From the NCBI GenBank assembly GCA_024636975.1, contig JAGXGA010000061.1, positions 62,001 to 126,000 of the forward strand: a stretch of 64,000 nucleotides of DNA. The letters run 5' to 3'. Position numbers and translations under genes: made by a program. Every line of letters starts with the position of its first letter. Position 1 is the first letter of the stretch. The notes under the pieces were generated by a model that saw only the letters and a program-made list of their open reading frames with translations, searched no databases and was not told where the DNA came from. Shown here piece by piece: positions 7,302 to 40,662 of the stretch. The stretch is from Mariniphaga sp. GTDB taxonomy: Bacteria; Bacteroidota; Bacteroidia; Bacteroidales; Prolixibacteraceae.

Positions 7302-7760
7302 TTAATCTGCTGTTTTAGATCTTCTTTTTTCCTTAAACCGCTGTAAAAAAGTAGACTTATCCATTTGCTGACTCTCGTAAACCTCCATATCCCAAACACG
7401 GATTGATTTACCCATGCCAATCAGCCGGACATTCTTTTTAAACTTTCCATAACCGAGAGAATCGGCGGGAATGTTGATGCGCCCATTGGCTGCCATTTCC
7501 ACCTTTTTGAAGTTTTCGTAAAAAAATTGCAGGAATCCATCATCTTCCTCATCAAAGGGATCGAGTGTAGATTTAAATGCCTCCACCCGGTCGTTCCAAA
7601 ATTTTTCAGGATATATATCCAGGCAATCTTTAAATAAATTTCGCTCAATAACCAAAGGCTCTGAAGACAAGTCACCCATCTCCTTTTTGAAGGCAGAAGG
7701 AAGGACAATTCTTCCCTTGTCATCGATGGTTGCATTGTATGTACCTGTGAATTCTGTCAT
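7302..7760 (-). CDS. mraZ: Transcriptional regulator MraZ
   Basis: Ring-forming AbrB-fold DNA-binding protein, first gene of the dcw cluster and known in E. coli and Mycoplasma to bind its own promoter region. The 152-residue protein has the two expected half domains, each with a DxxxR-like element (DDKGRIVLPS near the N-terminus and NGRINIPADS near residue 90). A repeat array at 7808-7842 that looks like its operator lies just upstream, implying autoregulation of the whole wall/division operon. Confidence 0.95.
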   Translation of the reverse strand: MTEFTGTYNATIDDKGRIVLPSAFKKEMGDLSSEPLVIERNLFKDCLDIYPEKFWNDRVEAFKSTLDPFDEEDDGFLQFFYENFKKVEMAANGRINIPADSLGYGKFKKNVRLIGMGKSIRVWDMEVYESQQMDKSTFLQRFKEKRRSKTAD

Positions 7761-7797: not shown

Positions 7798-7842
7798 CAA
7801 ATTTATTCCATATCCTTCCACTTTATTCCACTTTATTCCACC
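7798..7842 (-). promoter_or_regulatory. mraZ promoter (-7 box) with MraZ-box repeat array
   Basis: Read on the minus strand, positions 7842 to 7798 hold four TGG-containing repeats spaced exactly 10 bp apart (TGG beginning at 7840, 7830, 7820 and 7810). Two are full AAAGTGG boxes (7834-7828 and 7824-7818). The array runs into TAAATTTG (7805-7798), a good match to the Bacteroidota -7 consensus TAnnTTTG, about 38 nt before the mraZ start. Mycoplasma MraZ is known to bind AAAGTGG repeats with 3-nt spacers, the same geometry. No convincing -33 TTG is present; the repeats occupy that place. Confidence 0.65.
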
Positions 7843-8081
7843 AGCTTATTATATGCTTTTTGTTGAAAAAATGTTGATATTGTGTTGAAAACCTGTCGAA
7901 TGCCGCAAGTCCAACTAAATACTCATCACATTTTCAGCAAATTATCGATATCACCGGGGCAATACAGACCCGGTTAATAACTTGGATTTTCATGTCTGCA
8001 AAGAAATTAATAATGCGGAAACCTACAAAAAAACAAGCCTTTCTGTCAATAGAATTATCGATGAAAGGGAGTGTACTATCA

Positions 8082-8225
8082 TATACCTTCTCCTGCATTA
8101 ATTCAGTTATAACTCAGTGTTAACTCAGTATTAACTCAGTGTAAATTCAATTAAAATTGAATTTACACTGAGTTAATACTGAGTTTATATTGAGTTTACA
8201 TTGAGTTTAATCAGGAGAAGGTATA
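8082..8225. repeat. 144-nt near-palindrome made of ten 11-bp units
   Basis: The two ends form a perfect 14-bp inverted repeat (8082-8095 with 8212-8225, TATACCTTCTCCTG and its complement). Between them, 8101-8210 divides without remainder into ten 11-bp units. Five are of type A/A-like (for example ACTCAGTGTTA, ACTCAGTATTA) and five of the inverted type B (for example ACTGAGTTAAT, ATTGAGTTTAC). The symmetry centre is between 8153 and 8154, with a perfect 24-bp inner stem and an imperfect middle. A sequence of the same design is at 40060-40180. Confidence 0.9.
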
Positions 8226-8356
8226 GTCTATGTCCCCTTTATAACCATCCTGTACATCGGAAATACAATGAATAAAATTTTTGTTCAGGTTATAAATGAT
8301 CCCTCCAATAGTATTATTTTTAAGACGATTTTTAGTTAATTGCGAAAAAAAACTAC

Positions 8357-15943: not shown

Positions 15944-16675
15944 TTAAAAATAAAACAGTTTAAAGCTGGCAAATAAAAGAACCGTAGCCAGCAGGTAGGT
16001 CAGTTTTACATGGGAAAATTTTTCGCGGCCAATCCAGGAGCCTAATACACTTCCGGCAGCCCCGGTAGCTATAAGAAGGAAAATGTTATTTACCGGCTGC
16101 AGTCCTCCGCTTGATGCCAAACCTATTAAACCGCTTGCGGAATTTAACACAATAAAAACAGCAGAAACTGCAGCTGTTTCCTTAATGTTTGCCCAACGAA
16201 ACAATAAAAGAAGCGGGCTTAGAATAATGCCTCCCCCAATTCCAATCATACCTGAGAAAAAGCCAAGGACAGCTCCCACAAACACTGCAATCAAAACATT
16301 GACCGGACGGATAGTTTCAGGTTTCCTTGCGGTAAATAACATACGGGTTATTGCAATGAGTAGAAATATGCCTAAAATGATTTTATATGATGTCGGGTTT
16401 AATTCAAGGCGTGCACCTAAAAAAGAAAAAGGAATTGACAGGATAATAAAAGGGAGAAGCAGTTTGGGGCGGAAGTATCCCCCTCGGTAATAGGAATAAA
16501 AAGAGATACCTGCAACAAATAAATTAAGGATTAAAGCAGAAGCCCGCATATTCTCGGGAGTAACAGAGAAAATGGCCATTATAGCAAGATACCCACTTGC
16601 ACCACCGTGCCCCACAGAAGAGTACAATGCAGCGGTTATAAAAATCAATGCATAAAAAACAATTCCAAATTCCAT
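15944..16675 (-). CDS. TauE/SafE family sulfite/organosulfur exporter
   Basis: A 243-residue polytopic membrane protein with about eight hydrophobic segments and the two family hallmarks, SSVGHGGASGYLA near the N-terminus and FFSGMIGIGGGIILSPLLL near residue 145. TauE/SafE proteins export small anions such as sulfite or sulfoacetate. Start: an in-frame TTG at 16696 exists, but the ATG at 16675 follows a strong AAGGAGA ribosome binding site (16691-16685), rare in this window. A structured 131-nt leader precedes it. With a thiosulfate- or polysulfide-reducing complex upstream, sulfite removal is a plausible role. Confidence 0.88.
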   Translation of the reverse strand: MEFGIVFYALIFITAALYSSVGHGGASGYLAIMAIFSVTPENMRASALILNLFVAGISFYSYYRGGYFRPKLLLPFIILSIPFSFLGARLELNPTSYKIILGIFLLIAITRMLFTARKPETIRPVNVLIAVFVGAVLGFFSGMIGIGGGIILSPLLLLFRWANIKETAAVSAVFIVLNSASGLIGLASSGGLQPVNNIFLLIATGAAGSVLGSWIGREKFSHVKLTYLLATVLLFASFKLFYF

Positions 16676-16724
16676 TAAAAATTTTCTCCTTTCCAATTTA
16701 TTTCAACTACTGTCGAACGCGGGA

Positions 16725-16815
16725 GGACAAGCAGTTTCCAGCCTGTCCCATCGGTTTATTTTCCTTGCCCTGGAGGTTTAGAAAAATAAACTCGGAGAAT
16801 CACCAACCAAAAATA
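16725..16815 (-). promoter_or_regulatory. Structured leader with -7 box before tauE and the Mo-cofactor genes
   Basis: Minus-strand TATTTTTG (16815-16808) is a candidate -7 box located at the end of the rhodanese gene's trailer. Two hairpins follow. One is a perfect 9-bp stem (GTTTATTTT 16791-16783 with AAAATAAAC 16762-16754) enclosing a 20-nt loop. The other is an 8-bp stem with one G-U pair (GGACAGGC 16748-16741 with GCTTGTCC 16732-16725) that may extend to a GAAA-closed loop across a U-U mismatch. Neither is followed by a U run, so they do not look like intrinsic terminators. Next comes the strong ribosome binding site of tauE. It could be a cis-regulatory RNA. Confidence 0.5.
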
Positions 16816-39807: not shown

Positions 39808-40662
39808 TCAGGGGTAGCTTAATATTTTTGTATCAATATAATTGCAGGATTTAAGGAAGTATATGTAGATATTGCTTTTGTACAAAGAGTATGAGTTATT
39901 ATATTTTTTGAGCATGTATTAATATACAATAAGTTATCAGTTAACCTCCAGCCTGACCTGCTAAAATAATCATAATGCAGATTACCCTCTCATACAGGAG
40001 TATTATTTTATATATATATCAGACAATTCATCAGATGGAACATACCTCTTCCGGATTAAATTCGTATTAAATTCGTTTTTAATTCGCTCTTAATTCGTCA
40101 TTAATTCAATTTAAATCGAATTAACATCGAATTAACATCGAATAAACATCAAATAAACCCCGAATTTAAAATGAGTTTAATATAGCCAAGATTACTTGTA
40201 TCTCAGGTTATTTTATTCGTTAAAAATGACTAGAACTGTTGGAGGGGCTTTAACGCTTGTGTTTTTAAAGTTGAATGACATGAGCGTTCCCTCACTTATC
40301 CCCCGATAAAAATTTATCTATCTGGTGACATGCAAACGCTAAAATGTAATTCAATTATTCAATTTGATATTTTATTATTTCAATTCCAATCTTTTTGATA
40401 ACATCATGTGGCTTATGCTGTCTTATTTATTATTTATCTTACGTATTTTAACTATTTGTTAATTATTCATCCTATTCACTCACAAAATAGGGTTCTATAT
40501 AAAAAAATCCATCATTTTTGACACATGATATCAAAATTGAAGGGGTACAAATTAAAAATTAGGTTATTATTTGATCACAAACATCATTATCATAGGGGAT
40601 AAATAAAAATATAAAAAAATTAGAATTAAAATAACTGTTTAACAAATTTAAATTTAAAAGTC
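39808..40662. other. Long divergent spacer
   Basis: This 855-bp AT-rich stretch between divergent genes has no reading frame worth reporting and no tRNA. It contains the 11-bp-unit hairpin at 40060-40180. No good TAnnTTTG promoter and no -24/-12 sigma-54 promoter was found ahead of the gene at 40663, although a regulated promoter would be expected for the P-II/ammonium transporter unit. Confidence 0.65.
40060..40180. repeat. Second near-palindrome made of 11-bp units
   Basis: From 40060 the sequence divides into eleven consecutive 11-bp units. Five are type A (ATTCGTATTAA, ATTCGTTTTTA, ATTCGCTCTTA, ATTCGTCATTA, ATTCAATTTAA) and five are inverted type B (ATCGAATTAAC twice, then ATCGAATAAAC and two decayed copies). 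A final unit contains GAGTTTAA, as in the 8082-8225 element. The left flank ATACCTCTTCCGG (40042-40054) resembles that element's ATACCTTCTCCTG, but the matching right flank is missing. The symmetry centre is at about 40112. Confidence 0.88.

Follow-up and report, generated by a model that had tools for sequence, protein, structure and literature searches.

What is the inverted array of 11-bp units at 40042-40180 of this stretch of Mariniphaga DNA, and why does a second array at 8082-8225 keep the same plan with a different unit sequence? The stretch (the window) comprises 64,000 nucleotides, positions 62001-126000 of contig C20 in a 5.76-Mb draft genome of 67 contigs (G000). A first-pass annotation had attributed the shared plan to compensating change in both arms, hence to selection either for folding or for a protein that reads the 11-bp phase. 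The element at 40042-40180 is real: array plan, fold z-score, period and palindrome score all agree. Around an 8-nt centre (ATTTAAAT, 40109-40116, dyad between 40112 and 40113; features are given without strand), the left arm consists of five units at 40054-40108 (outward TGAATTAATGA, CGAATTAAGAG, CGAATTAAAAA, CGAATTTAATA and CGAATTTAATC), which profile scoring assigns to type B as defined below. The arm ends in a cap unit at 40043-40053 (outward CGGAAGAGGTA), a cap being found at the unit boundary in other copies as well. The right arm, 40117-40182, holds five units at 40117-40171 (CGAATTAACAT, CGAATTAACAT, CGAATAAACAT, CAAATAAACCC and CGAATTTAAAA) and then a sixth unit-like stretch, TGAGTTTAATA, at 40172-40182; the GAGTTTAAT once described as closing the element is a further unit, not a separate sequence. 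Decay of the right flank, also proposed earlier, was borne out by comparison with the cap profile, which places a decayed right cap (TAGCCAAGATT) at about 40183-40193. The sister element, of type A, runs from 8084 to 8223, with a cap at 8084-8094, five units at 8095-8149, the centre ATTAAAAT at 8150-8157, five units at 8158-8212 and a cap at 8213-8223. RNA-fold z-scores were -5.0 at 40030-40200 and -15.8 at 8075-8235, and in neither region did any of 200 shuffles fold as well. Tandem Repeats Finder detected an 11-bp period in each arm of each copy. A sequence-agnostic score combining palindrome matches with period-11 excess gave the two copies 92.8 and 84.2, and nowhere else in the window did it exceed 46.1.

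Both arrays belong to a genome-wide family. Searches of G000 with the sister copy scored 40 places among 100 first-look candidates, and with the 40042-40180 element 40 among 76. A unit-pair pattern gave 545 matches (the first 100 listed) versus 133 for a reversed-pattern control, while the type-A and type-B patterns gave 97 and 47, respectively, versus none for their controls. In total 96 distinct copies were located, a lower bound: 65 of type A (unit TGARTTNANAY), the type of the 8082-8225 copy, and 31 of type B (unit CGAATWWANNA), that of the 40042-40180 element. No additional copy came from ten loci numbered below L100: nine covered copies that were in the count already, and L097 had been retrieved on the strength of a single pattern match. 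The retained architecture with changed units that the first-pass annotation saw in two copies thus holds for both types inside this genome, and it holds between genera as well. The units do differ as it said, although their core is a YGA step (TGARTT or CGAATW) and not merely the letters ATTCG and ACTCAG that it named.

The geometry of the family is fixed. When retrieved DNA was scanned with a profile allowing centres of 4-13 nt, all 94 distinct copies had a centre of exactly 8 nt and arms in register, with the proviso that the profile presumes in-phase arms and favours intact copies, so that copies with an indel in an arm could escape it. Arms contain four or five units followed by a cap, which sits at a unit boundary wherever it is clear. 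The type-A cap (consensus RGGMGAAGGTA) was recognised on at least one arm in 62 of 63 copies; by the same measure 14 of 31 type-B copies lacked one. Weak 11-bp phasing extends outward past the cap with no sharp edge, the frequency of A at offsets 5, 16 and 27 being 0.85, 0.73 and 0.57 in the 117 of 126 type-A arms that were aligned on the cap. Units are conserved base by base: at position 0 of type-A units 1-4, for example, T gives way to A in 0-2% of cases. Whole copies have diverged from their nearest relatives by at least 11% in type A (n = 63) and 16% in type B (n = 31), the best pairs reaching 89% and 84%.

The spacing of the copies is strongly regular yet not strictly periodic. The 61 gaps measured within contigs ranged from 18.4 to 87.0 kb, with a median of 35.4 kb and a coefficient of variation (CV) of 0.40; none was below 18 kb, and 35 fell within 25-45 kb. 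In a slot-based null (59 gaps) the mean CV was 0.90 and 21.8 gaps below 18 kb were expected, with never fewer than 12 in 5,000 simulations. Types A and B obey one common pattern, since none of the 23 type-B elements tested (of 31) lay within 18 kb of a type-A element, compared with 10.1 expected. The pattern was also used for prediction. Four long gaps that seemed likely to hide elements (one in contig C48, two in C14, one in C50) held five, one of which, C14:210948, had already appeared as a weak match. The first 20 kb of C20, retrieved with this first round, contained no element, and a second round over five gaps yielded one (C50, about 226,620).

Placement relative to genes was determined with a purpose-made, simple codon-score gene finder, which gave a coding fraction of 0.859 in the gap stretches. 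A gene was called on both sides of 90 of the 94 copies and none of these 90 lay inside a gene. The flanking genes were co-directional at 43 sites, convergent at 26 and divergent at 21. The earlier remark that both arrays sit between divergent genes is correct for the two copies of the window and does not extend to the genome; we rejected a divergent-promoter element on this mixed orientation. A comparison set of 61 intergenic gaps of at least 200 bp from the gap stretches had 38 co-directional, 16 divergent and 7 convergent cases, and convergent sites may therefore be favoured by the arrays (26/90 versus 7/61 in long intergenic gaps). A recurrent neighbour was sought at 119 loci (most of 3-4 kb, with ∼1.5-2 kb around the elements), and no protein family occurred at more than five of them. 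The largest family, at five or fewer of the 119, is histidine-kinase-like by reading of its sequence, and the next proved to be translated array DNA.

Are the arms held together by base pairing? For type A (n = 63), matching between arms beyond that given by column composition was positive for the unit-1 core (z +3.1) and, more strongly, for the innermost spacer (z +5.0), and fell below the composition expectation in the spacers of unit 2 (z -6.5) and unit 3 (z -3.4). These negative values arise because one arm stays near the consensus while the opposite arm is degenerate, a polarity captured by a two-arm model with a log-likelihood of -3736.5 compared with -3823.8 for the best null from 10 arm shuffles. 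Type B (n = 31) had no detectable polarity, and its matching was weak in inner units (z 1.6-2.1) and near zero in outer ones. Gathering all copies, grouping them by unit sequence and comparing arms, the check suggested for compensating change, thus gave no support to a pairing requirement across the whole stem: beyond what the common consensus imposes, matching is confined to the innermost units, and covariation turns negative in type-A units 2-3. The systematic difference between arms speaks against selection for RNA folding. At co-directional sites, moreover, the strong arm had no preferred direction (15 downstream and 15 upstream in type A; 4 and 6 in type B), and an mRNA signal would not predict regular chromosomal spacing. 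We therefore rejected selection for folding on the arm statistics, the polarity and the lack of direction preference. That the arrays act as an RNA hairpin with compensating arms, be it a terminator, an mRNA stabiliser or a processing signal, is very improbable in spite of the strong predicted folds, the matching innermost spacers and the apparent enrichment of convergent neighbours. Rfam covariance models also found no match at either copy in the window. Their sole match there was a molybdenum/tungsten cofactor (Moco) riboswitch at 16670-16809 (minus strand, 65.8 bits). Of the two forces named in the first-pass annotation, a protein reading the 11-bp phase is the better.

The same architecture occurs in three genera. 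A covariance model built on 46 copies (24 A, 22 B) was searched against 393 genomes of the order, with nine candidates scored per listed genome; 13 matched, G000 included. Several matches are 11-bp palindromes with other units and others seem unrelated. In G013, a single 4.47-Mb contig from another genus of the same family, 38 places with the unit TGRACAAACCA were retained (40 scored of 65 candidates, two at E 0.59 dropped). Of 30 copies read, a script assigned spacers of 20 nt to 25 and of 9 nt to five; we read the longer spacer as the 9-nt centre together with an additional unit, TGGAGAATCGA. Here too one arm is more regular and the opposite arm degenerate. Hit strands look mixed along the contig by eye, and a replichore polarity of the strong arm was rejected for this reason. 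With the contig treated as circular the mean spacing is 117.5 kb with a CV of 0.42, and none of 50,000 random placements was equally regular. The gene finder placed none of 24 non-edge copies inside a gene. Six copies, each with an 8-nt centre, were found in G399, which belongs to another family; their units are TGAGTTTGGTC / TGAGTTTRRTG, and two of the copies lie 120.8 kb apart on one contig.

Several related observations were made in passing. Upstream of 16S rRNA genes in G013 stand three similar arrays (L184, L186 and L190), and a group II intron match was found close to L186. At L163 (G216, one contig) the 11-bp halves ATACATCGAAT / GTATCTTTGAT alternate in a palindromic array of far greater length, and long period-11 arrays were also seen in other families of the order, at L171 (G167, unit TGAATGACAAC) and L165 (G112, TTGAANANCTA). 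The unit-pair pattern gave 12 matches versus 1 in the control for the congener G001, 5 versus 3 for G002 and 5 versus 4 for G003, and matches were also found in G033, G035 and other members of the order. In G012, of the same family, the 62 matches versus 7 came from one 18-mer, TGAATTATTCATGAGTTT, which occurs dozens of times and is probably a different dispersed repeat.

Despite their different units, the families have a similar register. A YG step stands at unit starts in 0.87-1.00 of arms for units 1-4 in G000-A, G000-B and G013, and in 0.88-1.00 of arms at five of the first six unit starts in G399, for which the register figures come from 8 arms. At other phases the proportion was 0.00-0.14, except for 0.23 in G000-B and 0.25 in G399. 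Measured from the dyad, the GC wave at period 11 peaks at 5.49 bp in G000-A, 4.79 bp in G000-B, 5.39 bp in G013 and 5.30 bp in G399. Since the covariance model derives from YGA units, the families it recovers are biased towards steps of this kind. The sequence-agnostic score alone revealed another array type in G013 (L230:18860-19100, about 4,198,970 on its contig; unit TGAAGGGTAAC), and this type has the step as well.

Dispersed, intergenic palindromes bring mobile DNA to mind. The REP, BIME and REPIN repeats that accompany RAYT transposases are dispersed, intergenic, palindromic and species-specific, as the arrays are; the arrays differ in being larger (about 140-180 bp), in their rigid 11-bp lattice, in their regular spacing and in placing two types within one spacing. 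A non-autonomous mobile repeat, either a miniature inverted-repeat transposable element (MITE) or a REPIN-like repeat moved by a Y1/RAYT transposase, would owe its spacing to target immunity, known from Tn7 and Mu, and its intergenic position to purging. Copies within a genome do share ancestry, as their position-specific unit consensus indicates, and the orthologous mraZ-acyltransferase gap carries no array in three congeners. (Direct 10-bp repeats, TTCCACTTTA, lie just upstream of mraZ at 7816-7841, the gene itself occupying 7302-7760 on the minus strand (PF02381); they presumably correspond to the MraZ-box operator, which they resemble, and are retained with changes in the same three congeners.) Target immunity could set a minimum distance, but the gaps cluster at 25-45 kb with no pile-up at a minimum, and the two unit types exclude each other. 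Nor do the arrays have target-site duplications or sharp ends. Among 60 cap-anchored type-A pairs, no more than three share a 5-bp duplication at any offset pair and one a 6- or 7-bp duplication; sharing of 2 and 3 bp (20 and 9 of the 60 pairs) falls inside the cap. A MITE with target duplication was therefore rejected for type A, as information also fades outward. Near-identical copies are lacking among the 63 A and 31 B arrays, and the register is intact in every scored copy, though the profile favours such copies. Y1 transposases are present in G000 (7 matches) and equally in congeners without detected arrays (10 in G001, 4 in G003, 1 in G002); matches occurred in all eight genomes compared, with or without detected arrays, G013 having one weak match, and, as the arrays showed no correlation with these matches in the eight, an association with Y1/RAYT was set aside as doubtful. 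Taken together we judge a mobile origin of this kind unlikely. A plasmid or phage origin was also rejected: one G000 and one G013 element had no blastn match in either collection, and one 20-base A motif had none in IMG/VR. Named genomes gave no match to the A core, in databases that may omit records near the genome of the window, and six single matches to a G013 motif, five in Lachnospiraceae records and one in Verrucomicrobium, which were taken for chance; we take the Anaerobium record to belong to Lachnospiraceae. RNA hairpins and ordinary mobile repeats thus both fit poorly.

Taken with the dyad symmetry and the unequal arms, the fixed phase and the fading edges suggest that a symmetric protein complex would wrap or coat each array as a dyad-symmetric DNA site of ∼160-180 bp. 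Such a complex would contact a YG-containing unit once every helical turn to either side of the 8-9 nt centre, and the sites, at intervals with a median of about 35 kb in G000 and a mean of about 117 kb in G013, could serve large-scale chromosome handling, that is, supercoil control, domain anchoring or segregation. We moderately favour this account, in which the arrays organise the chromosome at intervals as protein-wrapped dyad sites read by gyrase or by a dedicated protein; protein binding, DNA wrapping, selection on spacing and the chromosome-scale role are all predictions of it. By analogy DNA gyrase would be the leading known candidate, with a dedicated DNA-binding protein about as probable, each taking roughly half of our joint confidence.

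The analogy with gyrase is good, yet it does not amount to membership. Strong gyrase sites, BIME-2 intergenic repeats among them, are likewise dyad-symmetric over more than 120 bp with arms phased at ∼11 bp, and the arrays are symmetric about a dyad for some 130 bp, their arms being helically phased. Published work describes the E. coli gyrase motif as symmetric over 130 bp, with arms phased at 10.75 bp around a central 36 bp (PMC6379681), a three-part motif and a palindrome at gyrase sites in a cryo-EM preprint (PMC12393610), and, for gyrases of three species, a 10-11 bp GC periodicity with preferences for -4G/+8C and -2A/+6T (PMC12324340). We converted the latter to G -5.5/C +5.5 and A -3.5/T +3.5 from the dyad; A/T at 3.5 bp fits the common type-A centre and neither the G399 centre (L280) nor most printed type-B centres. 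The strong gyrase site (SGS) of Mu is reported to need its right arm and not its left (PMC10052514), a dominance of one arm that resembles the strong and weak arms of type A and G013. The E. coli motif, however, is a degenerate GC phasing, whereas the arrays, to which gyrase binding is predicted, have sequence-conserved units and regular spacing.

A number of results weigh against this account and, in particular, against gyrase as the reader. The arrays keep their phasing across the centre, a place taken in the gyrase motif by a distinct 36-bp core; at 5.5 bp the GC pair is opposite in polarity to the preference converted above; base-by-base conservation of units within a genome exceeds what a shape code needs; and the 9-nt centre of G013 places the dyad on a base. 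No extra type IIA A-subunit was found in any of the 15 genomes searched. Fourteen have two such subunits each and one was found in the G000 assembly, on which an extra topoisomerase paralogue in carriers was rejected. The sole G000 subunit scores like the second-ranking (ParC-like) subunit of the 14 relatives, and gyrA of G000 probably lies in an assembly gap. More generally, no cognate gene was found, nor does any gene family recur beside the elements at the 119 loci. Four gaps of 75-87 kb (C53, C51, C12 and C21) contained no element under either detector, about 2.5 kb of the C12 gap excepted, and it is these that keep the spacing from being strictly periodic. Two congeners, G003 (∼436 kb) and G002 (∼198 kb), had nothing above detector background where about ten and five arrays would be expected at G000 density, though arrays ten times sparser would escape notice; the site is therefore not general in the genus. 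As to the register, the GC wave of G000-B and G399 is slightly stronger at period 11.5 and another phase, and the unit origin was set on the YGA step, so that the presence of the step is partly by construction, although its repetition and distance from the dyad are not.

A dedicated reader could also be a partition protein. Plasmid parC repeats are 11 bp long, and plasmid R1 parC, like an array, has short repeats in two sets of five, for which a single protein, ParR, is the reader. The arrays might then be partition or centromere-like sites on which a filament-forming protein reads 11-bp steps, as ParR does on parC, scattered as SegB sites are. Base-specific conservation of the units and arms that vary by whole units, four or five, would suit such a protein. 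In R1, however, the repeats are direct and occupy one plasmid locus, with parMR genes beside the two sets; the arrays have inverted arms at about 100 chromosomal loci, and no partner gene recurs within about 1.5-2 kb of them. The E. coli matS sites are palindromic and spread over the chromosome. SegB offers a precedent for scattering, with palindromic sites over an archaeal chromosome and a motif of 13 bp (PMC12284271); those sites, in Sulfolobales, and matS are likewise thought to be organisational, while the arrays are extended, helically phased and turn over in unit sequence between genera. We regard a partition site as unlikely; being one form of the dedicated-protein branch of the preferred account, it overlaps in probability with that branch.

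It is possible, and we put it forward tentatively, that protein-wrapped arrays on an 11-bp lattice, tens of kilobases apart, form a new class of bacterial landmark in which one protein geometry persists while the unit sequence turns over between genera. Satellite DNA of eukaryotic centromeres likewise turns over in unit sequence; in the arrays phase, centre and spacing persist. No such element was described in the titles or abstract openings searched, and since most subscription papers were outside that scope the novelty is provisional. To our knowledge, chromosome organisation in Bacteroidetes has been little studied, and it is an open question by what means a bacterium might maintain landmarks at regular chromosomal intervals. 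The arrays make this question testable, as they combine measurable spacing, a fixed geometry and an interchangeable unit, and are present in one species and not detected in its congeners. If the preferred account is true and gyrase is the reader, they would constitute a grid of strong gyrase sites that occurs naturally across a whole genome; with another reader, they would point to a new nucleoid system.
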